Virus record (IMG/VR): IMGVR_UViG_3300032053_000025
Location: 24,622-88,621 of that record
Strand: one strand, 5' to 3'
DNA: 64,000 nt
Source of the DNA: a virus
Part shown: piece after piece, positions 585-52,604 of the stretch
How positions within the stretch are numbered: position 1 is the stretch's first letter
How the letters are laid out: the number at the start of each line of letters is the position of its first letter
The notes under the pieces: generated by a model
The model's input: only the letters and a program-made list of their open reading frames with translations
What the model was told of the DNA's origin: nothing
Database searches by the model: none
Program-made: the position numbers and the translations under genes

Positions 585-1804
585 TAATTTCAATTCACCA
601 GCCCGAGGCTTTCTGTCATTTATCCCTTTTAGATACAATATCTAAATCTGAGTTGTTTATTATTGGGGACGATTTTCAATATCAGAAATCGTACTTTGAC
701 AATCGCAATAAAATTCGATCCAACTCTAAAGAAGGCTGGTCATGGCTAACTATCCCCGTTCAAGCTTCCAACAATCATATTGCTATAAAGGATATTAAGG
801 TAGCTTCGGGTGATTGGAAGAATAAATTACTCAATCAATTAACATCGAGCTATCAACATGCTCCTTATTTTAATGTTTATTTTCCTCAATTGCAAGAATT
901 ATTGAAGACACAAAGCGAATACCTTATTGATTATACTTTACCTATACTACAATGGTTCCTACTCCAATTTAAAATTTATACTCCAATTAAATTAATGAGC
1001 AAATTAAATATCCAATCTGATAATGGTTCTGATAAGGTTTTGGAAATTTGTAAAAAGGTGGGAACAAATACTTACTTATCGGGTCCAAGTGGGAAGGATT
1101 ATCTGAATTTAGCTTCCTTTAAGGAAGCAGGAATAGACTTGCAGTATCATAATTATTTACATCCTTATTACCAATCATTTCCAAAGGTAGATATGCTCCC
1201 AGGCTTATCTGCTTTAGATTGTTTATTCTCACATGGACCAAACTCAAACAATATTATGCAGGCTAAAGGTATAGGTAGCATGGCTACAATTATGGGGAAT
1301 ATTGAATATAAACATAGGTCCATTCTTGAGGTATTTGGCGGGGATGGTACGGGCCAATTATCATCATATGGTAACACAGTTGATTGTTCTAATTTAACAA
1401 TATGGGAATTAGATTTGCAAAATGTATATAAACTTAGGGATAAATATCCTCATGCTAATGTTAAGCATGTTGATTCTTTAATTGAAGCCAAAAAGACTAA
1501 TCAAACCTTTGATATTATTATAATTGATACTCCGGCATTGATGTCTAACAATAAATTATTACCTCAAATATCAAACTTACTTACCGAGGATGAGGATGGA
1601 ATACTTATATTTAGAGCAATTAAACAATCGTGGAATAATCATCCTTCAGTGGAAGTTGACCAACCCATTGAATATTGGAAATTAATTTTTCAACAGGACT
1701 TTGATATTATTAATATGAAAGAAGTGCAAAGAGAATATTTTTGGAGTGAAGGTAAGTGGAAATTATGGTTAAGCAATTACCTTTTCCAATTAAGGAGGAT
1801 ATAA
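581..1804 (+). CDS. WbqC-like protein fused to a SAM-dependent methyltransferase-like domain
   Basis: 407 aa with an AGGAG ribosome binding site. Residues 1 to about 205 match the WbqC family pattern: IHQPEAF near the N-terminus, then IIGDDFQYQKSYFDNRNKIR and W-x-x-LTIPV. WbqC proteins occur in O-antigen and other surface-glycan clusters. From about residue 248 there is a Rossmann methyltransferase pattern: ILEVFGGDGTGQ (motif I), an acidic residue in WELD, then FDIIIIDTPAL (motif IV region). A fusion of the two domains suggests sugar or lipid-linked sugar modification coupled to methylation. The exact substrate is unknown. Confidence 0.75.
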   Translation: MIISIHQPEAFCHLSLLDTISKSELFIIGDDFQYQKSYFDNRNKIRSNSKEGWSWLTIPVQASNNHIAIKDIKVASGDWKNKLLNQLTSSYQHAPYFNVYFPQLQELLKTQSEYLIDYTLPILQWFLLQFKIYTPIKLMSKLNIQSDNGSDKVLEICKKVGTNTYLSGPSGKDYLNLASFKEAGIDLQYHNYLHPYYQSFPKVDMLPGLSALDCLFSHGPNSNNIMQAKGIGSMATIMGNIEYKHRSILEVFGGDGTGQLSSYGNTVDCSNLTIWELDLQNVYKLRDKYPHANVKHVDSLIEAKKTNQTFDIIIIDTPALMSNNKLLPQISNLLTEDEDGILIFRAIKQSWNNHPSVEVDQPIEYWKLIFQQDFDIINMKEVQREYFWSEGKWKLWLSNYLFQLRRI

Positions 1805-1805
1805 A

Positions 1806-2717
1806 ATGAGTAAAATATTCAAGCCTTTTAAACTCCCTAATGACTCTGTAGATGTAAATACTCTACAATTCCCTTTATTAGCCAGCAGAAAGCTGGATGG
1901 ATTGAGACTAGTTGTCAACAAGGGTGGTATGTTTACTTGTTCATTAAAACAATTTCCCAATGTGCAATTGCAGGGCAGGTTCGAGCATTTAATGAAGATT
2001 TCCAGAGGACTAAATTTACTCTTAGATGGAGAATTATTAGCTAAGAGTTTAACTTTCTATGAATTAAGTGGGCTTTGCAGGAGGCTAGACGCACCCTTAC
2101 CAGAGGATTTATATTTTTATGCCTTTGATGCGGTACAAAACGAGCAATATGATATGGAGTTTAGCAAGAGGATATCTTATTTAGACAATATAGCAAAATA
2201 TTCTTATGTTAAGGTTCTAGAACAAAGATTAGTTAAATCTATAGAAGAAGTCTGGGCATTTTATGAAGAGGCATTAAAAGAAGGTCATTGTGATGGGCTA
2301 ATCTTGAGAAGCCCAATGGGTAGATATAAATGTGGTAGAGCAACTATCAATGAAGGTTTGGGATATAAATTAAAGCCATTCGAGACAATAGACTCCGCAA
2401 TTATAGGGGTTGTACAAGCAACTGAGGTAGATCCAAGGGCAGAAAAGACAATCAACGAGCTGGGGCGGAGTACAACCTCTAAGAAATTAGGGGATAGAAT
2501 TTTAATTGAAAAAGCCTCTGCTTTTGTTGTCAAGTATGAAGGAAAAGATTTGAAAGTTACTATTGCAATGACTGATATAGAGAAAGAAGAAATTTGGAAG
2601 AATAAGGATTCTTATATTGGAAGATGGATTGAATTCAAAGCCATGAGGGTGGGAATGCTTGAAGATGGTTTGCCAAGGCACCCCACAACCCTGAGAATGA
2701 GAACCGATAAAGACTAA
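1806..2717 (+). CDS. ATP-dependent DNA ligase
   Basis: 303 aa, starting one base after the previous stop behind AAGGAGGATATAAA. Nucleotidyltransferase motifs are in order: motif I SRKLDG with the AMP-accepting Lys29, motif III LLDGELLA, motif IIIa FYAFDAV, motif IV CDGLILRS and motif V YKLKPF. The C-terminal OB-fold ends with a PRHPTTLRMR-type segment, the usual end of small phage and bacterial ATP ligases. It seals nicks in duplex DNA during replication or repair. Length is normal for a minimal two-domain ligase. Confidence 0.92.
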   Translation: MSKIFKPFKLPNDSVDVNTLQFPLLASRKLDGLRLVVNKGGMFTCSLKQFPNVQLQGRFEHLMKISRGLNLLLDGELLAKSLTFYELSGLCRRLDAPLPEDLYFYAFDAVQNEQYDMEFSKRISYLDNIAKYSYVKVLEQRLVKSIEEVWAFYEEALKEGHCDGLILRSPMGRYKCGRATINEGLGYKLKPFETIDSAIIGVVQATEVDPRAEKTINELGRSTTSKKLGDRILIEKASAFVVKYEGKDLKVTIAMTDIEKEEIWKNKDSYIGRWIEFKAMRVGMLEDGLPRHPTTLRMRTDKD

Positions 2718-2718
2718 T

Positions 2719-2931
2719 ATGCACTATATGCCTAAAAATACCAACTATTTAGCGATACTCGATAAGACCGAATCCATAGGCAAACAAATTAACGCAAATA
2801 AAATGATTGATTTGCGTATAGCAAGGGGCGGTTGTTTTGTTGCCCGTTATTATATTAAGACTGCAAAAATTAAAGGTATTGAAGTAGACTTAATGTATGA
2901 AGTCAAGATTTATGACAATCTGAAATCATAG
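2719..2931 (+). CDS. hypothetical protein, 70 aa
   Basis: Begins two bases after the ligase stop. An in-frame ATG at 2728 is an equally possible start because neither has a clear Shine-Dalgarno sequence; coupling to the ligase is likely. The product is basic, with a C-terminal half of alternating hydrophobic residues (probable beta strands). It ends with TAG, which shows that TAG acts as a stop in this genome. No family recognised. Confidence 0.55.
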   Translation: MHYMPKNTNYLAILDKTESIGKQINANKMIDLRIARGGCFVARYYIKTAKIKGIEVDLMYEVKIYDNLKS

Positions 2932-2941
2932 GAGAATAATA

Positions 2942-3637
2942 ATGGAAATTAAGCAATACAAAGACTATCAAATCCAACTTCGATCCTCCTCAGATGCAGG
3001 AGTATTCCAAGAAATTATCATTAACAATTGTTATGGTATTGATTTTAAATGGTTTGATAAAGTAAAGACCATCATTGATATTGGTGGCCATATAGGTATA
3101 TTTAGTTTATTTATTGCTCCTTATGTTGATAAGATTTATACCTTTGAACCTTATTGGCAAAATTATAGATTATTGGTAGAAAATGTAGACCAGAATAATT
3201 TACTATCTAAAATTAAATGTCATCAAAAAGCAGTTACCCATTATGAAGGAGTAATTGATTTTTATGAATCTAAACAAACCCATGTAAGACATACTATTGT
3301 ACCTCCGGGGCAATTAAAATTTTGCGACCAAGGGGAGAAAATAATTGTGCCTTGCACTTCTCTCTTCAATATTATGTCTACTATTGGGCATCCAACCTTA
3401 TTGAAAATAGATATTGAAGGTGGAGAATATTCCTTACTATTCAATACACCCGAGCAAGCATTTAAAAATATTACTTACATTGTTATGGAAACTCACCATG
3501 ACGAATCTTCCCTTTTCAATAAAGACGATCTTATCAAAAAATTAGAAAGTTATGGCTACAAAGTTTCCTGGAAATTTAACTGGAAAGACCCAGACTATAA
3601 AATGACAACCGGAGATTTAATAGCCATAAAAGAATAG
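2942..3637 (+). CDS. FkbM-family methyltransferase
   Basis: 231 aa with an AGGAG site. The FkbM pattern is clear: TIIDIGGHIGIFSLF (SAM-binding motif I), YTFEPYWQNYRLL (acidic residue binding the ribose), and LLKIDIEGGEYSLL (the family's K-x-D-x-E-G-x-E motif). FkbM enzymes O-methylate sugars or related hydroxyls in surface polysaccharides and natural products. The gene lies between the WbqC fusion and the glycosyltransferases, so methylation of a phage-specified glycan is the likely job. The target is not visible. Confidence 0.88.
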   Translation: MEIKQYKDYQIQLRSSSDAGVFQEIIINNCYGIDFKWFDKVKTIIDIGGHIGIFSLFIAPYVDKIYTFEPYWQNYRLLVENVDQNNLLSKIKCHQKAVTHYEGVIDFYESKQTHVRHTIVPPGQLKFCDQGEKIIVPCTSLFNIMSTIGHPTLLKIDIEGGEYSLLFNTPEQAFKNITYIVMETHHDESSLFNKDDLIKKLESYGYKVSWKFNWKDPDYKMTTGDLIAIKE

Positions 3638-3644
3638 GAGTAAA

Positions 3645-4520
3645 ATGAGTTATAAACTCCAATTATTAAAAGAAAGTTTAATACCAATTACTGCCCAAGA
3701 TTTAATTAATATAGGTGGAATTCCACCTATAGACCCCACCAAACAAGTGGCTATTGTTATTGATTCCTTCCTTAGAGATAAATGTTTATTAATCCTCCTT
3801 AAAAGTATATTTAAATTCGCACCTCATTATAAAATTTATATTACAGGCCAGGGCATCTATAGTAAAGAGAAAGATGCCCTTTTTTGTTTATTGAAGGTAG
3901 CAGGCCATACCATAATTAATTGTGGCTTTGATGCAGGATTAGGTCAATGTCACAAAAAGATAGTAGAATTTGTGACTGAGCCTTATATATTTTTCTGCCA
4001 TGAGGACGCTTTATTTACTGATAAAACTAACTTAGAATCAATGGTTAATATAATCAAACTTAATAGATATAGATTAGGTTGGCTATCTCCTTCTTCCTTA
4101 TTCAATCAACCTTCCCATTTATTATTGAAAAATTTAAATTTAGCTATTACTCCTCTTGAAGTAGAATTTAAAAATAGTCATAGAGATCCATTTATTTGCG
4201 ATATTGCAGGTACTCAAGGTTTAGTTAAATCAACCTTATTTAGTTCAATCCAATATGATGCTCAATTTAAAATGAATGAAACTTTAGACTTAATGTTAAA
4301 CATGAAATTTAATACTGTTAATAGAGTAGCAATCACCAACCAATCTATATTATGGCATCAAGAACCTTGTGAGCATCCTATCTATCTTCAATATAAGCAT
4401 AGGGAATGGTATTATGACCAATTATTAAGGACTAAATGGCAATTTACAAGTATTAATGGAAGAAAAATTAAAAGGGATAATACTAAGTTTCTTTATGTTA
4501 TGGAGGAAAATAATGGATAA
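3645..4520 (+). CDS. glycosyltransferase-like protein (GT-A type)
   Basis: 291 aa behind AGGAGTAAA. Around residue 33 there is AIVIDSFLRDKCLLILLKSI, the usual opening of GT-A sugar transferases, followed by GFDAGLGQCHKKIVEF and then YIFFCHEDALF. In the last, an E-D pair takes the position of the metal-binding DxD. C-terminal His/Trp-rich segments (LWHQEPCEH) are common in phage GT2-like proteins. It overlaps the next glycosyltransferase by 8 bases. Donor and acceptor unknown. Confidence 0.65.
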   Translation: MSYKLQLLKESLIPITAQDLINIGGIPPIDPTKQVAIVIDSFLRDKCLLILLKSIFKFAPHYKIYITGQGIYSKEKDALFCLLKVAGHTIINCGFDAGLGQCHKKIVEFVTEPYIFFCHEDALFTDKTNLESMVNIIKLNRYRLGWLSPSSLFNQPSHLLLKNLNLAITPLEVEFKNSHRDPFICDIAGTQGLVKSTLFSSIQYDAQFKMNETLDLMLNMKFNTVNRVAITNQSILWHQEPCEHPIYLQYKHREWYYDQLLRTKWQFTSINGRKIKRDNTKFLYVMEENNG

Positions 4521-5268
4521 ATCTATCGCAGTAATTATGCCCTGCTTTAAACGTAACGAATTATTAGCCCAAACTGTAGAAACATATAAGCAATTTATGC
4601 CTAAAGATTGGGTATTATTAATTGGGGATCAAGACCCTTCTGAGGCTAAATTTAAGCAATATAATGCTGGCAATATTCATTATTATCCCCTCCCCTATGA
4701 TTGCGGGATTAGCTTAGCCAGAAATATGTTGATTAAAGAAGCCTCTAAATCAGGCTTCGAATACGGATTATTATCTGCCGATAGTATACCATTAATTAAA
4801 ACGCCGGATTTAACTCCATATATTGAATTCCTTAAAATGGATCCTAATCATGGAATTATCGGGCTTCCTACGAGCGATAATTTAAAGAAAGAGGATTTAT
4901 GGAATGCTAATTTGTCCATTGATTCTGAGGGAATTCATTTATGGCCCGCTAACGAGTATACCGAGTTTAATGGGATTAAATATAAGAAATGCCAGATTGT
5001 TAGCAATTTCTTTTTGTTTAAATTGCAATTAGCACTTGAGAACCCTTGGAGGGAGGAATTAAAATTAGCAGAGCATGAATCGTTTTTCATTGACCTAATG
5101 CAGAAAACTTTATACAAGGTTTTCCATACTCCCTATAGGTTCGCTACATATATTCAATCTCGACCACCAGATTATGATATTTATAGGCGAAGGTTGTATG
5201 ATACTTATATCCCGTTGCTTCGTAAACTTTATGGGCTGAGGGCCTGGATAATTTACCATAATCGTTAA
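4513..5268 (+). CDS. family 2 glycosyltransferase
   Basis: The start at 4513 (MDKSIAVIMPCF) is preferred over an upstream in-frame ATG because GGAGG lies just before it. About 251 aa. N-terminal VIMPCFKRNELLAQTVETY is the classic GT2 nucleotide-sugar binding beginning, ISLARNMLIKEA is the conserved helix, and GLLSADSIPL takes the DxD position (here ADS). The pair with the preceding gene overlaps by 8 bases, implying coupled translation and related acceptors. Confidence 0.78.
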   Translation: MDKSIAVIMPCFKRNELLAQTVETYKQFMPKDWVLLIGDQDPSEAKFKQYNAGNIHYYPLPYDCGISLARNMLIKEASKSGFEYGLLSADSIPLIKTPDLTPYIEFLKMDPNHGIIGLPTSDNLKKEDLWNANLSIDSEGIHLWPANEYTEFNGIKYKKCQIVSNFFLFKLQLALENPWREELKLAEHESFFIDLMQKTLYKVFHTPYRFATYIQSRPPDYDIYRRRLYDTYIPLLRKLYGLRAWIIYHNR

Positions 5269-39942: not shown

Positions 39943-41589
39943 TTAAACGCCCGTTTTACAGTGGCGTTTTTGTACTTCTGATTCCGGCGTTGAAAAGCCG
40001 GCGAATTCTATTAGGAATTCTGCGATGGAAAAAACTTCGATACTTTGATATAAATGGTCTTCTTTTGCTATACAAACAAAAACCACTCCATCTGATCGGA
40101 CCATCGATACTACTTTTTGAATTTGCTCATCAAATTTATAATCTAGAGGCATAAACAAAAATCCATTATAAGCCAAATGGCAGAATCGTTCATGAGCCCA
40201 AAATTTCATTTTCTCGAATCGCTTGATTAGTTGGTGATTCTCGTCCCGTTTAGGTTTTCCATCATCGTCAAGAACATAACCGACTTCAATGTTCTCATTA
40301 AATGAAACCCGGATTAATTTTTTATTATCAATTTCAGGGTCTGCCTCTAAACTATTTAATATGCTACGGCCACATCCATCAGTACTATCTATCGATATAT
40401 ACGGTGCCTTAAATTTCTCATATAAAAATTTAAAAATTGGTTCTTGCTCAACATTAGTAAGCCCACGTAAAGTTATATTATAAAGATATCTCCATTTCTT
40501 ATTTACTAACGCCCATACCATAATTTCTGTGATTCCAATATCACTAATATCGGCAGATACTATTATTTTGTCGGCATTGGGTGGTCGATCTACGATAATT
40601 CTATGTTTGTAAAGAAAAAAATTCTTTTTATTTAATTCATAGTTCTTTATTGTATTGGCTTCGTCTAATTCCCCGTTAGCTTTATGCGGATACACCAAAT
40701 CCCGCAACCTTTGCATATCAAAAGCTACTTCGGTATTTTGAATAACTTCTCCATCCACATATATCTTGAACGGAATACTTAATTCTCCACCATATTTTTT
40801 AATAGCATTTTGTCTTTGTTTCAAATTAAAGTCGGGATTTATCATCTGTGGAAGATTTAATACTCTTCCTTTTTTTCTATTCTCAACATCATAAAACTGT
40901 TTACCTGCTGGGGATAAATCCGTAAAATCGGTCATTCCACTTACTCGAAATACCGTTCCGGCAGAATGAATTGAATCTTGCCGTTTTTCATAAACTATAT
41001 CTGACTCTAAACTAGCTTCTTCGACCACAAGCCGTTTGAAATGTTTTTGCAAAAACTGGTCGCCTGCTCGGGTTCCACAAGCGACATTCATGTTTACACT
41101 TTGTAAAACCGTTCCTAATTTGGTGGTAATATAATAACTACGATCAATAGAAGCAATAAAATGCTCCAAAATTGGATGACTTTCAAAAGCTTTAACAATG
41201 GGTTCTAGTGCACCTTTTAAATGCCCCATATCAAAAGAACTGAACCCCATCGATTCGTTGACGGCAAATAAAATATAGAGGCAGGAATCTATTTTCGAAA
41301 TAAAGGCGGTCTTGCCGTAATTCCTAGCCGCAAAATTATAAATCGAACCACAATTACTCCGCATTTCCATTTTTTCTTGTTCGGATAAATTAGTGCCCTC
41401 TAAGGCCAAACCATACTCATGTGATAGCAATGGAAATTGACCTAAGCGAGTCTTAACAAATTTATCCTCGGAGAACGATGTAAGGTTATCTACACTTGAA
41501 AATAAAGTTTCAGCGAGTGCGATACTGTCGGTCATCGTTTCGATCATACGACGATCTTCGTCGGTCAAAATAATTTTAGGTTCAAGCAT
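39943..41589 (-). CDS. terminase large subunit
   Basis: 548 aa. ATPase: NFAARNYGKTAFISK (Walker A), KRLVVEEASL (Walker B with catalytic Glu), VFRVSGMTD (coupling motif). RNase H-like nuclease: IIVSADISDIG (first Asp), YISIDSTDGCG (second Asp), and IAKEDHLYQSIEVF (third Asp region). Normal length for the family. No strong ribosome binding site; translation may be coupled to the small zinc-ribbon gene just upstream. Confidence 0.9.
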   Translation of the reverse strand: MLEPKIILTDEDRRMIETMTDSIALAETLFSSVDNLTSFSEDKFVKTRLGQFPLLSHEYGLALEGTNLSEQEKMEMRSNCGSIYNFAARNYGKTAFISKIDSCLYILFAVNESMGFSSFDMGHLKGALEPIVKAFESHPILEHFIASIDRSYYITTKLGTVLQSVNMNVACGTRAGDQFLQKHFKRLVVEEASLESDIVYEKRQDSIHSAGTVFRVSGMTDFTDLSPAGKQFYDVENRKKGRVLNLPQMINPDFNLKQRQNAIKKYGGELSIPFKIYVDGEVIQNTEVAFDMQRLRDLVYPHKANGELDEANTIKNYELNKKNFFLYKHRIIVDRPPNADKIIVSADISDIGITEIMVWALVNKKWRYLYNITLRGLTNVEQEPIFKFLYEKFKAPYISIDSTDGCGRSILNSLEADPEIDNKKLIRVSFNENIEVGYVLDDDGKPKRDENHQLIKRFEKMKFWAHERFCHLAYNGFLFMPLDYKFDEQIQKVVSMVRSDGVVFVCIAKEDHLYQSIEVFSIAEFLIEFAGFSTPESEVQKRHCKTGV

Positions 41590-42519: not shown

Positions 42520-42879
42520 TTATCCTATTGCCCACAATCTAATTTTTCCGTGGGACTTCAAATATATCTTATTTCTTTCAATCTGATTAAATGGCAATGC
42601 TTCACCGGCATATAAAACTCCGTCCACTTTGTTGCCATCCCAACTAAATAAAAGAACATTTGCCGAATCGTTTGATATTTGCACATTAGAAGCACTGAAT
42701 CCAAACTCAATTAATTGCCATTGAGGGCCTTCTAAGTTATTTTCATCATACATTTCAAAAAACCAATTGGTGCCTAATGCCTGTTTGAGTTGCAAAAGTT
42801 GAGAAGCTACATTTAAGCCTTTATAAGAGGCATTGGTATCAACTTGCAGATTTTTTAGCAACTCATTATTAAGTTCCAT
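42520..42879 (-). CDS. hypothetical late protein, 119 aa
   Basis: Overlaps the preceding gene by 11 bases. Beta-rich with WFFEMYDENNLEGPQWQLIE and SNDSANVLLFSWDG; resembles small capsid or fibre accessory sandwiches. Unassigned. Confidence 0.45.
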   Translation of the reverse strand: MELNNELLKNLQVDTNASYKGLNVASQLLQLKQALGTNWFFEMYDENNLEGPQWQLIEFGFSASNVQISNDSANVLLFSWDGNKVDGVLYAGEALPFNQIERNKIYLKSHGKIRLWAIG

Positions 42880-43720
42880 CGGATTCTCTATCTGTAGATT
42901 CCATTAAAGGGTCTATATTCTCAGTGCAATAAAGCTTGCGTTCTAACCATTTTCCATAAGAGTCATCCTGGCATTGACTGCCAAGTAAAACTTTGCATAC
43001 ATCAAGTAAGGTTATTTTGGATTCTTTATATAAGTTCCACAGCCAATCATTAGCTAGAATTTTATCCCTGAAAAAACTGTGTTTGAGAACGTCGTATGCC
43101 TCTGGGCGAAGGAGAAATAATAATGGTTTCCCGCAACTTGGACACTCCTTGTATTTGGAAACCTGGTTCAGTTCTTCGCTCCAAATTTTCATTTTTTTCA
43201 ACCATTGATTCCACTCAACCAATGGATCGTTCTTCTTCTTCTCTTCCGATAGTCCCAACAATTTTTTAATTTCAATTACTTTAGTGGTAAGTTCGGCTAA
43301 CGATCTCAATTCATTAATTGGCACCCTGGGATTTGTACCATTTCTCTGTGCATCTATGGCTTCCCTATTAAGAAAAGTTTGAATTCTATGAATCTGGGTT
43401 TCAAAATTAATACATGATTTCAATAAATCTTTATCCGATTCATTGGTAATATTATTTCCAGTAATATATTTATTAAAAAGAGTTAACGCAAAGGCCGCCT
43501 CTTCAGAACCAACCCAAGTACCGACCTCATTAGTAACCATTTCAATAATCGTGGGTTCTGCCGGAGTTGCATTAACAATGGTTCCATATTTCATATTGAA
43601 TTTTTCTTTCGCCACTCGCTCAAATTCTTCTACCGGCAAATTTGCAAAGGCCGGGAACACTTTTAATTTGGCTTTATAAGATTCAAAACTAATATGGGCT
43701 TTTTCGATTTTTTTCTTCAT
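42869..43720 (-). CDS. putative terminase small subunit, 283 aa
   Basis: First gene of the late operon. Helical, with FANLPVEEFERVAKEKFNMK (possible DNA-binding helices), a central coiled coil, and one Cys pair (CPSCGKPLLFLL). Small terminases lie just upstream of the large subunit and are helical DNA-binding proteins, hence the suggestion; three small genes intervene here. No diagnostic motif. Confidence 0.4.
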   Translation of the reverse strand: MKKKIEKAHISFESYKAKLKVFPAFANLPVEEFERVAKEKFNMKYGTIVNATPAEPTIIEMVTNEVGTWVGSEEAAFALTLFNKYITGNNITNESDKDLLKSCINFETQIHRIQTFLNREAIDAQRNGTNPRVPINELRSLAELTTKVIEIKKLLGLSEEKKKNDPLVEWNQWLKKMKIWSEELNQVSKYKECPSCGKPLLFLLRPEAYDVLKHSFFRDKILANDWLWNLYKESKITLLDVCKVLLGSQCQDDSYGKWLERKLYCTENIDPLMESTDRESDGT

Positions 43721-44740: not shown

Positions 44741-44746
44741 ATTATA

Positions 44747-44775
44747 AGTATACCACATGAAACCTTAATTTACAA
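44747..44775 (-). promoter_or_regulatory. promoter of the 1-kb RNA
   Basis: On the minus strand: TTGTAA (44770-44775), 17-base spacer ending TGTGG, TATACT (44747-44752). Predicted start near 44740, exactly where the first paired GAGGACAT begins. Confidence 0.75.
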
Positions 44776-44930: not shown

Positions 44931-45590
44931 TTATCTCTTTAATCTATCAGTTCCCTCCACCGTCACATTCCCCTGCGATTTTGGTAATTCTCCCACATAT
45001 GCACAAGGCCACGGAAGGCCGCAGACAACACAATAACCATGCAATTTTCCTTCTTGTGGGTTATGCTCACCCCCACAACAAGCTCGGTGAGCTATGGTCT
45101 GAGCAGTTCGCTCAATTAAGTTCCCTTGTGATTTCAGGGCGGAGAGTTCGTTGGATAAATCTATAACATTTTTCGCGTTTGCTCTTGCTTCTTTCCACGC
45201 TTCTGTTTCGTCTAATAATCGTTTTACATCTGCAAGCTCCGTATCCTTGGCGGAGAGTTCGGATTGGAGCTCCGCAATCTCATCATGCAACTCATCCACA
45301 ATCCCCACATGAGCAATCAGGGCGGCATCGAGAGATTTGTTCCAACTCTCTTGTTGTGGTGTTAACATTGTTTCTGGCGGTCTAATTTTCTCTTGCGAGG
45401 GCCAGTCCGATGATGCTGATAGGACGGCTTCGGTGAAGGAGAGTAAAATATTTCCATCATCAGATACAATAACCGTCTTATTACCTTTACAAGCTGGACA
45501 AGTTATCTTTGCTGATGATGACACACTCTCTGGGTTATCAATGGTTCCTAATCCCCTACAACTTGGACAAACAATAGGATATGTTCTCAC
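44931..45590 (-). CDS. DnaJ-type zinc-finger/coiled-coil protein, 219 aa
   Basis: GTG at 45590 is preferred because AGAGAGGTGC precedes it; a frame from 45632 would begin at the predicted transcript start. Residues about 8-40 have CPSCRGLGTI and CPACKGNK, DnaJ-type C-x-x-C-x-G-x-G modules. Residues 90-165 are coiled coil (VDELHDEIAELQSELSAKD). The C-terminus has CCGG and CVVCGLPWPC. GC content by eye is clearly above the surroundings, suggesting a recent arrival. Function unknown. Confidence 0.6.
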   Translation of the reverse strand: MRTYPIVCPSCRGLGTIDNPESVSSSAKITCPACKGNKTVIVSDDGNILLSFTEAVLSASSDWPSQEKIRPPETMLTPQQESWNKSLDAALIAHVGIVDELHDEIAELQSELSAKDTELADVKRLLDETEAWKEARANAKNVIDLSNELSALKSQGNLIERTAQTIAHRACCGGEHNPQEGKLHGYCVVCGLPWPCAYVGELPKSQGNVTVEGTDRLKR

Positions 45591-45636
45591 TTCCGCACCT
45601 CTCTTTTTAAATATGGTTAAAATAATCCTCACTTAT

Positions 45637-45665
45637 AGTATAACATAAGTTTACTTAGTTTGCAA
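45637..45665 (-). promoter_or_regulatory. sigma-70-like promoter
   Basis: Minus-strand TTGCAA (45660-45665), 17-base spacer, TATACT (45637-45642). Drives the zinc-finger/coiled-coil gene leftward. Confidence 0.65.
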
Positions 45666-45846
45666 GTTTTGTTCAGAAAAATAATATACCATTAAATCTC
45701 ATTTCTCCAAAATCCCTAGAAATTCATAAACCATCAAAATTTACACACCTTATATATACGCCAATTTATATCTTATTTTTTTCACCCTATTATATAGAAA
45801 ATATGTTATTTGTCTTTATTGATTATTTACCTATGTTACATAATAT

Positions 45847-45969
45847 ACTCTCCCTAGAGGGAGAGTTAATAGTTTAATTAAGGGATCTCTTTAATAGAGA
45901 TCCCTATTAACTCTTTTAGTTATATTATTGAAAAGCATAATATAACTAGGTATTTCTAATCGAAATACC
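45847..45969. repeat. cluster of perfect hairpins
   Basis: In 123 bases: ACTCTCCC/GGGAGAGT (45847-45866, 4-base loop); AGGGATCTCT/AGAGATCCCT (45881-45905, 5-base loop) enclosed by GAGTTAATAG/CTATTAACTC (45863-45913); a 12-bp TAGTTATATTAT stem (45917-45948); and GGTATTTC/GAAATACC (45949-45969). The first hairpin and the enclosing stem share bases, so they exclude each other. Confidence 0.85.
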
Positions 45970-46124
45970 ACTTCTAGCTTTTTAAAATTATATAAATAAA
46001 AACAAGTAAAGATTTAATAATGGAGATAATAAAGTAGATGATATTAAAGTGATAATAAGCGTCGGCCTCAAAGCTGAATAAACCCAATATAATTTATGGG
46101 TGCCTTCCAGGATTAGAACAGGTA

Positions 46125-46152
46125 CCTGCTAAATCCAACCTACCCGGGGTAG
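46125..46152. repeat. 28-base related element, copy A
   Basis: Aligns without gaps to 46992-47019 at 21 of 28 positions; the shared core is TGCTAAA and GGGGTAG. It lies in a palindrome-rich patch (CAGGTACCTG at 46119-46128, CTACCCGGGGTAG at 46140-46152). Confidence 0.5.
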
Positions 46153-46984
46153 CTACTATCATTTCATACAATTCTATGTATAATAATCTACAACAATGAA
46201 GCTATTAATAAGCTTAATCAACTCATACTAATTTAGTATTAATTAGGAGTTTAATAGTAATTGAGCTTGATAAAGAATAAATACATAACAAAATTGATAA
46301 GTTAATGTATTGTTGGGTAATTACTGAATAGTACTTATTAGTAATTAACCGGTAATTAAAATACCATATTGTAGATTCCACGGAATGGTTTGATATAGGT
46401 TGATAAGGTTTGAATAAATAGTGATAATAAAATCAAATAAAGCATAAAATAACCCAAATGCCCAAATTAAGGCATAGGATAGGCAAGGTTGCATTATTAT
46501 TAAAAAGAGTATGGATATGGCTTAAAATAATTTAAATGGCAAGGACAAGCCTTAGAACGATAATTTGAGGCATTGTAGTAACCATAATTAAAGTTTGGCA
46601 TAGGAATTCCAGGAAGTATAATAATTAAGATTAGATTAAATAGCATAATTAATTGTCAGATAGATCAATAATCATAATAAAATGAGCAATTAATTGGAGA
46701 AAATAATGTAAAGGATGTTAAAGATTGCATAAGGATGGTAAGTAAAAGTAGATAAAAGTAAAGAATGTTAAGGTTAGCATATTGGTAGGGAAAGGATAGG
46801 ATAATATACACCATAAATAAGGCTATAAAATAGATTAAATACTGTAAGAGGCGGAGTCTTGCAAGGTTGGAAAATTTAAAGTAGAATATGAGTATGGAAT
46901 GAGTATGGTAAGGTTGGATAAATGCCGATAATTGGATGATTATTCATCGATAGAGTATAACCGTGGTATGTATTTTGAGGCAGA

Positions 46985-47019
46985 TCGGCGGGCTTGCTAA
47001 AACGGACCCGCCGGGGGTA
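46985..47019. repeat. GC-rich hairpin containing related element, copy B
   Basis: CGGCGGG (46985-46991) pairs with CCCGCCG (47006-47012) around a 14-base loop, a strong GC stem in AT-rich surroundings. Element copy B spans 46992-47019. Confidence 0.6.
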
Positions 47020-47333
47020 GGGTATAGGTAAACTATTGCAGTATAACATAATAGAGTCTTATAATCTAATAGAGATTATAATACAAACATGACTTTTTTC
47101 CACCACCATTTTTTAATGCAAATGATTGATAAATTATACCTATAAATTACAATAGTAAGTATGTTTTATACTCACTATTTAAGCATAAGTAAGTAGATAA
47201 ACTACTTACTTTTTAAGCATAGTTTGCCCCGTTTACTACTCATTAATAGAGGATATTATACCTGTATAATTAATGTTTCTAATCAATCTATTTAATGTTA
47301 TTTATTGTGATATTTTAGGTTAGTTATAACAAT

Positions 47334-47449
47334 AAAAAAGCCTAAGTAATTAAACTTAGGCTTTCTTTTGACTCTGTAAAGGGGAAGGTTAACGCTCATT
47401 TTATGGTTGAGTAACCAGTTATTTTAGTCTGATACTTCCTATCCTTTAC
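47334..47449 (-). ncRNA. small structured RNA of about 115 nt
   Basis: Own promoter at 47456-47484 and own terminator at 47337-47364. On the RNA, CTGTAAAGG near the 5' end pairs with CCTTTACAG just before the terminator. Adjacent GGAAG/CTTCC extends the helix, and TGGTT-ACTC-AACCA forms an inner hairpin. No translatable frame. A trans-acting regulator or RNA-polymerase-binding RNA is possible; no known family was recognised. Confidence 0.65.
47337..47364. terminator. bidirectional intrinsic terminator
   Basis: 11-bp stem AAAGCCTAAGT/ACTTAGGCTTT with loop AATTAA. T-runs on both strands: TTTTTT on the minus side and CTTTT on the plus side. It ends the small RNA and any read-through from the two minus-strand genes. 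Confidence 0.85.
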
Positions 47450-47455
47450 AGTTAA

Positions 47456-47537: not shown

Positions 47538-47804
47538 TTATCTATTACACCTAGGAATAAATGCTTTTACTCTTGCATGCCTGTATACTTGACTATAACC
47601 ATGCAAATACGCGTCTTCATGAGCCTTAGTACTATTAGGATAAATTTTGCCGTTCAATTCCCCGAATTGATAAACTGTTTTATTATGCAACTTACGCGGA
47701 ATAAATACCGATAGTTCCGCTTGGCCGTCAGGTAAACACCCAGTTGTACTACTTACGCTCCATTTACCTTGTGTTACTATTATGCTTGAATTATAGGGGA
47801 TCAT
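47538..47804 (-). CDS. hypothetical protein, 88 aa
   Basis: AGAGGAGGTGC before ATG. Ser/Thr-rich beta N-terminus, then HEDAYLHGYSQVYRHARVKAF, a basic His/Tyr-rich stretch. Early-type gene running leftward from the hub with the 57-aa gene upstream. Unassigned. Confidence 0.55.
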   Translation of the reverse strand: MIPYNSSIIVTQGKWSVSSTTGCLPDGQAELSVFIPRKLHNKTVYQFGELNGKIYPNSTKAHEDAYLHGYSQVYRHARVKAFIPRCNR

Positions 47805-47855
47805 TTTAGCACCTCCTCTTATTGAATAGTTATTAATAAATTTTCGATCCTCCTG

Positions 47856-48029
47856 TTAAATTAGCCCTGCTATTCTTGCATTAGTCAAGTCAATTAATTC
47901 TTGATCTGTAATAAGTTTCATCATGTAAGATTTTTCAATAGTAATCTTACGGTGACAAATTGCCCATAAAACCAACTTATGTTGTAATCGTTCAACGCTC
48001 AAATTTTCTAAGATATTATTTTGAACCAT
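47856..48029 (-). CDS. small hypothetical protein, 57 aa
   Basis: ATG at 48029 follows AAGGGAGGCTTAAA; ends at TAA 47856-47858. Helical, with one Trp and one Cys. First gene behind the leftward promoter at 48078-48105. Confidence 0.6.
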   Translation of the reverse strand: MVQNNILENLSVERLQHKLVLWAICHRKITIEKSYMMKLITDQELIDLTNARIAGLI

Positions 48030-48077
48030 TTTAAGCCTCCCTTTTTTCCTTCGGTTGCTTTTACCTTCTACAATTAA

Positions 48078-48105
48078 AGTATACCCTATTTTTTCTATTT
48101 GTCAA
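48078..48105 (-). promoter_or_regulatory. leftward promoter
   Basis: Minus strand TTGACA (48100-48105), 16-base spacer, TATACT (48078-48083). The 35 bases 48072-48106 are identical, inverted, to 50643-50677. Confidence 0.75.
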
Positions 48106-48167
48106 GCTTAAAATTAATAATAATTCCATTATTTTTGTAAACTTATAAACAAGGTTGCTATTTTACC

Positions 48168-48196
48168 TTGACATTTCAGAAATTCTCTGTTATACT
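48168..48196 (+). promoter_or_regulatory. rightward promoter with tandem 8-mer downstream
   Basis: TTGACA (48168-48173), 17-base spacer, TATACT (48191-48196). Two adjacent TTGTGCAA copies lie at 48215-48230, inside the early transcribed region, possibly an operator. No convincing gene lies between here and the next promoter. Confidence 0.65.
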
Positions 48197-49745: not shown

Positions 49746-50392
49746 ATGAAAAAATATGAATTATTAAAAAATGACAGTATTGAAGTTAATGGAAAAAAGT
49801 TATTCGGATTAAAGCTTTAATTTCTTTTGGCTTTGTTGCAAAGGGAGACTTAGGGGGTTATATTGAATCCGAAAACAATTTAACACAATACGGTGGGGCT
49901 TGGGTGTCCGGTGAGGCTTCGGTGTACGGTAATGCTTCGGTGTCCGGTGAGGCTTCGGTGTACGGTAATGCTTCGGTGTCCGGTAAGGCTTCGGTGTACG
50001 GTAAGGTTCGGGTGTACGGTGAGGCTTGGGTGTTATTTGGCTATATAAACGGAAAATTTACTCTCAAATATTCTTTAGCTATGCAATTGGGATTATGTTT
50101 TGTTAATGAAAAAGTAATATTGTATAAAAGAGTAAACAAAATATCCAAAGGAAAATATAGCTCGTGCCATGATAGGAATTTTGTTTATGAAGATGGTAAG
50201 GTTGCTATTGCTAAGAATCCCGATATATCAGATGCTTCTTGTGCTTCCGGTTTGCATTTATCATTAGCATTATATTGGGAATTGGGGGATACTTTAATTG
50301 CATGCGAAGTGAAAGAAGAAGATGTAATAACAATTCAACAAGGAAAAGTAAGATGTAAAAAATGCAAAGTAATTGGAGAAGTTACTTTTTAA
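49746..50392 (+). CDS. hexapeptide-type repeat protein read through a -1 frameshift (DUF7666-like C-terminus)
   Basis: AAGGAGG precedes ATG 49746. The first frame (MKKYELLKNDSIEVNGKK) stops at TAA 49818-49820. The rest, in the -1 frame, reads RIKALISFGFVAKGDLGGYI onward, and the family is normally continuous across this point. The join lies at A-AAA-AAG (about 49792-49798), in frame for -1 slippage as in dnaX. One missing C near 49805 would explain it equally well. Then come eight 6-residue repeats (A-S-V-x-G-x), a left-handed beta-helix type, and a C-terminal domain with CASGLHLS and CKKCKV. Confidence 0.65.
49899..50042 (+). repeat. tandem 18-base coding repeats
   Basis: Eight copies of an 18-base unit close to GCTTCGGTGTNCGGTNAN, with alternate copies more alike (36-base period). 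Near-identity suggests recent slippage or unequal exchange. Confidence 0.9.
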
Positions 50393-50588: not shown

Positions 50589-50643
50589 CATGAAAAAATT
50601 ATACTGTATAAGAAATAATAACAGAATAATTATTAAAACTGCC

Positions 50644-50671
50644 TTGACAAATAGAAAAAATAGGGTATACT
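50644..50671 (+). promoter_or_regulatory. rightward promoter
   Basis: TTGACA (50644-50649), 16-base spacer, TATACT (50666-50671). Same 35-base sequence as the inverted promoter at 48072-48106. The leader downstream has a small GGAC/GTCC hairpin (about 50687-50704). Confidence 0.8.
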
Positions 50672-50724
50672 TTAATTATAGGAGAGCCGGACATTAGGCC
50701 GGGTCCAAAAAACGGGAGGGAAAT

Positions 50725-51515: not shown

Positions 51516-52604
51516 ATGGCTACAATCTTTTTAGAATTATTGGTAATCTTGGCTATATGTTATTTATGTATGCCAAAAAAGCCACAGGAAGCTCCAAGCG
51601 GGGCTTGTTTTGATGGGGGTGTAATAACTATGAGACAAACTTCCGGGGCTCCCAAAGAGATTAAATCTGGTATTGATACAACTTTAATTAAGCCTTATGA
51701 TAAGCCTGTAAAAATCTATATATACCGGCCTCAGACGTTAGATCAATTTATAGGACAAGAACAGGCAAAGGATGAGATAAGATCCTTTGTCAAGGTTGTG
51801 CAGGAATTGAAACCCAATTCTCACCTTTTAGTTTCCGGTTGGGCAGGAACCGGAAAATCGACGATAGTATATGTTCTAGCTAATTTATTGCAAGCGAAAA
51901 TGTTTTATCGAACACCTCAACAATTAATGGATAATGATGCAGTAATTGAGATATGCAATAAGATAGGAGAAGCAAAAGAAAAACAAGTAATTTTGTTTTT
52001 GGATGAGATTCACGGTTTAGATTCAAAGGTTGCAGAAACCCTCTATATGGTGATGGAAGATTCGAAATTAGCAGGGGTTGATATTAGACCTTTTATATTG
52101 GCCGGGGCAACAACAGAATTAAATATTTTACAGAAAAAATTAAGCCCTTTGGTTGATAGATTTTCTACGAAAATAGTTTTAGATAGGTATAGCTCTGAGG
52201 ATCTTTATAAAATCATAACCCAATATAAACGGCAATTATATCCCGAGATTAAATTGGAGGATGAGGATTTAAGGACTATATCAAAAAATGCCAAACGAAC
52301 GCCAAGAATTGCAATAGGGCTATTAATGAAAGATTTGGTAGAAAAAGATATTGATAAAGTAATGAACCAAAGCGGGATTATAGTTGATGGTTTAACTAAT
52401 ATTGATATTAGGTTGTTACAAGTATTAAAGGATAATATTAAACCTATGGGGGCCGAGGCCTTGGCCCAAAGAGCATCTATACCCACGTCAGATTATTTAG
52501 TTGTTTATGAACCATTTTTAGCTGCGGAAGGTTACATCAATCGAACCCCTCGCAGGGTGCTCGGGGACAAAGGGAAACAAATTTTAGAGCAATTAGGGAG
52601 TTAA
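51516..52604 (+). CDS. RuvB-like AAA+ ATPase with N-terminal membrane helix
   Basis: 362 aa. Residues 1-20 are hydrophobic (FLELLVILAICYLCM), a likely membrane anchor, followed by a linker of about 40 residues. From residue 70 it reads as RuvB: RPQTLDQFIGQEQAKDEI, GWAGTGKST (Walker A, 108-116), ILFLDEIH (Walker B), ILAGATTE (sensor 1), PLVDRFS (Arg finger, 215), RTPRIA (sensor 2), and the winged-helix end INRTPRRVLGDKGKQIL. No RuvA or RuvC was seen. It could be a branch-migration motor or serve the clamp-like protein before it. Confidence 0.85.
   Translation: MATIFLELLVILAICYLCMPKKPQEAPSGACFDGGVITMRQTSGAPKEIKSGIDTTLIKPYDKPVKIYIYRPQTLDQFIGQEQAKDEIRSFVKVVQELKPNSHLLVSGWAGTGKSTIVYVLANLLQAKMFYRTPQQLMDNDAVIEICNKIGEAKEKQVILFLDEIHGLDSKVAETLYMVMEDSKLAGVDIRPFILAGATTELNILQKKLSPLVDRFSTKIVLDRYSSEDLYKIITQYKRQLYPEIKLEDEDLRTISKNAKRTPRIAIGLLMKDLVEKDIDKVMNQSGIIVDGLTNIDIRLLQVLKDNIKPMGAEALAQRASIPTSDYLVVYEPFLAAEGYINRTPRRVLGDKGKQILEQLGS

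Follow-up and report, generated by a model that had tools for sequence, protein, structure and literature searches.

Does DNA replication start at a cluster of four perfect hairpins in a noncoding zone of a large phage genome, or do these hairpins serve another purpose? Origins are unknown for most metagenome-derived phages, and the locus at 45847-45969 had been proposed as one on the basis of its hairpins, a change in base composition, and divergent transcription. We analyzed it within a window of 64,000 nucleotides, which covers bases 24622 to 88621 of a viral contig that is 88,621 bases long; positions of the cluster and its surroundings are those of the window.

Phage genome and replication genes

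The contig ends overlap by ~140 bp, and the genome is therefore probably complete and circularly permuted. Tail proteins and, from reading the sequences by eye, a probable terminase and a probable portal identify the virus as a tailed phage; the ORF at 39943-41589, also judged by eye, is the probable large terminase gene (TerL). The replication and recombination genes specify a family B DNA polymerase (polymerase B), a primase-polymerase (Prim-Pol) with an intein, RecA, DNA ligase, a RuvB-like AAA+ protein, and a tyrosine recombinase. An SMC-like ATPase gene adjoins a metallophosphoesterase gene, and this pair resembles T4 gp46/47. The PHROGs label of clamp loader for the AAA+ protein (51516-52604) was discarded because its tblastn matches are RuvB proteins. 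The Prim-Pol ORF (L002, contig 1753-4932) matches PF09250 with an E value of 2.7e-12, and the next ORF starts at contig 4932, where this one ends. With the Prim-Pol segments that flank the intein, searches of Pfam and PHROGs returned a weak PriCT-1 match only and detected neither an SF3 helicase nor a winged helix.

Judging from sequence comparisons, no close relative of the phage is detectable in the collections searched. Viral contigs yielded no relatives for the RuvB-like AAA+ protein, the product of 42869-43720, polymerase B, RecA, or the probable TerL, nor did bacterial genomes when approached via TerL and polymerase B. The distant polymerase and RecA matches have identities below 35%, over part of the protein only. 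A DNA search in phages gave no match, and a pattern scan for TerL motifs picked out 20 contigs, none of which is a tblastn relative.

Three further features of the coding regions deserve mention. The C-terminal half of Prim-Pol carries an inserted intein-splicing domain and a LAGLIDADG endonuclease domain. A sugar-modification gene cluster (L003, 6562-11145) encodes an IspD-like cytidylyltransferase-short-chain dehydrogenase fusion, a LicD protein, and glycosyltransferases. The small protein gene at 49904-50392, with a GTG start, contains in-frame 18-bp tandem repeats (49889-50050).

A nonrandom cluster of perfect hairpins

All four hairpins announced in the preliminary description are present, and an additional inverted repeat is nested among them:

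45847-45866: hairpin H1, 8-bp perfect stem, 4-nt loop
45881-45905: hairpin H2, 10-bp perfect stem, 5-nt loop
45917-45948: hairpin H3, 12-bp perfect stem, 8-nt loop
45949-45969: hairpin H4, 8-bp perfect stem, 5-nt loop, abutting H3 with no gap
45862-45914: 11-bp perfect inverted repeat (arms 45862-45872 and 45904-45914), enclosing H2 and overlapping and competing with H1

The plus strand thus has two folds close in energy, the four separate hairpins at -48.7 kcal/mol and a multibranched junction at -51.2 kcal/mol, whose closing helix consists of 7 pairs, one of them G-U.

This cluster is not due to chance. When perfect hairpins are counted with stems of at least 8 bp and loops of 3 to 8 nt, the 64-kb window contains 25, compared with 12.1 ± 3.9 in shuffled sequences (n = 60), and shuffled windows never hold more than 2 hairpins per 125 bp, versus four in the cluster. 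Shuffling the local 600 bp 1,000 times gave a mean of 0.23 hairpins and a maximum of 3; four were never reached. Against shuffles, the 141 bases of the cluster fold with z scores of -8.0 and -8.5 as RNA and of -8.2 and -8.8 as single-stranded DNA, and the stems fold equally well under either set of parameters.

The palindromes differ from each other, and no sequence is common to the four stems. Neither a repeat family nor iterons were found near the cluster, the iteron search returning only short degenerate repeats. In the 5.2 kb searched for DnaA boxes, the noncoding zone contains none, and a single box with one mismatch lies inside a gene. A pattern scan for H2 gave no exact match.

Base composition and duplex stability

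Three tracts of distinct composition flank the hairpins:

45633-45846: G-poor tract to the left of H1, AT-rich at 22% GC and partly within the least stable 300 bp; candidate unwinding element
45970-46200: A-rich, skew-neutral spacer between the hairpins and the C-poor tract
46200-47030, plus strand: C-poor, purine-rich tract with no ORF; AT skew +0.16, TAA enriched, TAT/TATA depleted

Base composition had been said to change sides at the cluster. The switch is real but spans ~350 bp rather than being sharp: GC skew is -0.42 in the G-poor tract, 0.00 in the cluster, -0.04 in the spacer, and +0.42 in the C-poor tract, which contains the contig's peak of positive skew (500-bp window at 46481). 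The position of the skew minimum, suggested earlier as a check on the origin, was determined contig-wide (88.6 kb). The cumulative curve reaches its minimum at 46228, ~260 bp to the right of the hairpins, which leaves the origin unrefuted. The bottom of the curve is flat from ~45.8 to 46.35 kb, and its maximum lies at ~10161.

Cumulative skew climbs to 47.1 kb and then drops until 48.2 kb, exactly over two small leftward ORFs; its extremes fall at gene divergence and convergence. In most genes, an excess of G over C goes with an excess of A over T, and the sign of the AT skew is that of purine-rich transcripts. This coupling and the sign change of the skew within the operon at 47.5-48.05 kb, whose genes run leftward, argue that skew follows transcription. 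An origin at 46 kb would not predict negative skew on the side where this operon sits, and a test of replication as the cause of the skew came out against it, since skew is negative over the leftward ORFs at 47538-48030, to the right of the minimum, although a single small operon makes this a limited test. Transcription direction suffices to account for all of the skew, which is therefore no proof of an origin.

Of all 300-bp windows in the contig, the one at 45749-46048 has the least stable duplex, with other noncoding windows close behind. The R-loop energy of a plus-strand transcript of the C-poor tract is among the top 4% of 1-kb windows yet within the range of ordinary genes, and R-loop energetics are therefore indecisive as support. 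A ~10.5-bp periodicity in this tract was weak and equaled in other windows and was dropped; TRAP- or CsrA-like binding motifs are not enriched there.

Transcription around the cluster

The following signals frame the noncoding zone:

45665-45637, minus strand: promoter-like site (extended -10) of gene 44931-45632
47059-47081: perfect 9-bp hairpin at the right end of the C-poor tract
47151-47211: two similar tandem hairpins, 34 bp apart
47334-47367, both strands: bidirectional terminator-like hairpin
48105-48078, minus strand, and 48168-48196, plus strand: opposed near-consensus promoters

Transcription does not diverge around the cluster, contrary to what had been proposed, because the flanking ORFs (44931-45632 and 47538-47804) both run leftward. 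The real divergence lies near 48.1 kb, ~2 kb away, between the two opposed promoters. The gene at 44931-45632 encodes zinc-binding motifs and has weak Anti-TRAP and DnaJ zinc-finger matches. To the right of the C-poor tract, the ORF at 47538-47804 is accompanied by a second small leftward ORF at ~48030-47857, read by eye. Given the terminator at 47334-47367, the tract may be transcribed rightward, with this transcript meeting the leftward ones at that point.

A 42-bp promoter region occurs in two copies of opposite orientation with 95% identity (48065-48106 and 50643-50684) and is probably a shared early promoter. The promoter-like sites of gene 44931-45632 (45633-45665) and of the ~1-kb RNA candidate described below (44743-44775) are alike (TTGYAAAYTAAG ... 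TATACT) and differ from the TTGACA early promoters; they possibly form a second promoter class.

What the hairpins may do

Tentatively, and with more room for doubt than for belief, we read the cluster as the structural core of a noncoding origin/control region, whose hairpins would provide a DNA structure for a Prim-Pol-type replication apparatus. The flanking AT-rich DNA would melt, aided by transcription from nearby promoters, and the four palindromes would extrude as hairpins on each strand. The phage's own Prim-Pol, polymerase B, and AAA+ protein may then recognize these hairpins as structure and lay the first primers, and forks would depart in both directions. Directly observed are the hairpins and their nonrandomness, the weak duplex, the skew minimum, the lack of ORFs, and the replication gene set, whereas initiation of replication at this site, a role of the hairpins as DNA, and their recognition by Prim-Pol are inferred. 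Position, melting, absence of ORFs, and gene content support this reading, as does the near-absence of G-U pairs, which would be expected if both DNA strands must fold: the minus-strand fold has none among its 45 pairs and the plus-strand fold has 2 among 47, compared with 38 of 327 in the neighboring RNA candidate of ~1 kb described below. This last argument is modest because a search for perfect stems favors, by design, stems without G-U pairs. Against an origin stand the dependence of skew on gene direction, the lack of iterons, DnaA boxes, and a common stem sequence, and the remoteness of the Prim-Pol gene. To call the locus typical of bidirectional origins, as the preliminary description did, is thus an overstatement, the more so with the divergence 2 kb off; compatible with such an origin is a fair wording.

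A structured RNA is nearly as likely as an origin, which still leaves it doubtful. It could be either a small RNA of ~125-140 nt or the 5' domain of a long noncoding RNA that is transcribed rightward over 46.0-47.35 kb and ends at the bidirectional terminator. RNA folding of the cluster is very strong (z about -8), and the compact plus-strand junction, built on the 11-bp inner repeat and the closing helix, is the lower in energy of the two folds. A TATACT at 45844-45849, seen by eye and with no good -35, would place the start at ~45856, the base of the junction fold; the purine-rich tract and the terminator also fit a rightward transcript, and further RNA-like elements adjoin the cluster. However, no strong promoter was found at the cluster on either strand, G-U pairs are almost absent, and the plus strand of 46050-47050 folds no better than shuffles (z = -0.5). 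Rfam 15 gave no match at gathering score in the whole window and none at E values up to 5 in 43.7-48.7 kb. If the cluster is RNA, its hairpins, the C-poor tract, and the ~1-kb RNA candidate would make up an unusually RNA-rich control zone.

The hairpins also resemble tandem terminators and might act as a transcription insulator that separates the right-hand operon and the C-poor tract from the left-hand genes, or the reverse. Four terminator-like sites fall in 45600-46200, where 0.3 are expected; three of them, all on the minus strand, coincide with hairpins, two overlapping ones with H1 and one with H4. Yet these sites have only 5 T in 8 and no uninterrupted T run, whereas an intrinsic terminator is defined by a GC-rich stem with a T run immediately behind it; H2 and H3 have no T-rich tail on either strand; and a clean terminator already exists at 47334-47367, all of which makes an insulator unlikely. 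Slimmer still is the chance of another protein-binding or processing site, such as a packaging start (pac), a recombination or resolution site, or an operator array. The cluster is palindromic noncoding DNA and lies upstream of the probable TerL gene, at a distance of 4.3 kb, as might suit pac or recombination, and the phage encodes a tyrosine recombinase, but the recombinase gene is 7 kb distant, and the dissimilarity of the palindromes speaks against an operator array. The probability that the origin and these three alternatives leave over belongs to an explanation that we have not thought of.

Comparison with known origins

Plasmid-borne and phage origins offer partial parallels to the origin proposed here. 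In pRN1, a stem-loop of ~100 nt is needed for replication by a PF09250-type protein, the ORF904 Prim-Pol, and similar stem-loop origins have been proposed by the same authors for some phages, e.g., BIP-1 (PMC4234260). The likeness lies in a noncoding stem-loop structure of ~100 nt and a replication protein with a PF09250 primase-polymerase domain. Unlike the single large stem-loop of pRN1, which lies directly 3' of the replication gene, the cluster consists of four separate perfect hairpins at contig 70468-70590, not beside the Prim-Pol gene but ~43 kb off on the circular map, and the intein-carrying Prim-Pol has no detected SF3 helicase domain.

The oriV of RSF1010 contains the ssiA/ssiB hairpins, which are recognized by the primase RepB' (PMC4434180). 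Single-stranded-DNA hairpins serving as priming sites beside an AT-rich region, with bidirectional forks, are what we propose for the phage; here, however, there are no iterons, no two matching 40-nt ssi hairpins, and no GTG 3' of the hairpins as in ssiA. The complementary-strand origin of phage G4 likewise comprises several tandem stem-loops in an intergenic region of ~140 nt, but G4 is a single-stranded DNA phage that uses the host DnaG primase. The T4 origins oriF and oriG are R-loop origins (PMC4412123). Promoters and DNA that melts easily are common to them and our locus, and the phage's replication genes are partly T4-like; in contrast, no middle promoter has been shown here, the R-loop energy of the tract does not stand out from that of genes, and hairpin arrays are not what defines a T4 origin. 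Membership in the pRN1, RSF1010, G4, or T4 origin families is not claimed.

A more specific proposal is that this tailed dsDNA phage, of a lineage with no detectable relatives, initiates replication at an array of four perfect hairpins that differ from one another; its own intein-bearing Prim-Pol system would read them structurally, and a flanking C-poor noncoding transcript would open the duplex. This would be a type of origin not described for large tailed phages, and we consider it quite improbable. If the origin is real, the locus would offer a compact way to find out if PF09250-type primases of large phages work from hairpin origins, as that of pRN1 appears to.

Neighboring RNA candidates

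About 1 kb to the left of the cluster, a region without ORFs on the minus strand (44742-43752) is a candidate for a large structured noncoding RNA of ~990 nt, and a better candidate than the hairpins for a new large phage RNA. It has an extended -10 promoter-like site (44775-44747) and a terminator-like end (AAGCCACT...AGTGGCTTTTTT), and its 980-nt core (44780-43800) folds with a z score of -7.5 against 30 shuffles. G-U pairs are twice as frequent in the sense fold (38 of 327) as in the antisense fold (17 of 292). Rfam gave no match for this candidate, and a 17-nt pattern from its region matched a single, unrelated contig.

A second candidate, a small RNA of ~120 nt on the minus strand (47326-47452), combines a 9-bp closing helix with a terminator and folds with a z score of -5.8. 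It is preceded by a consensus promoter at 47484-47456 (TTGACA, 17 bp, TATACT).
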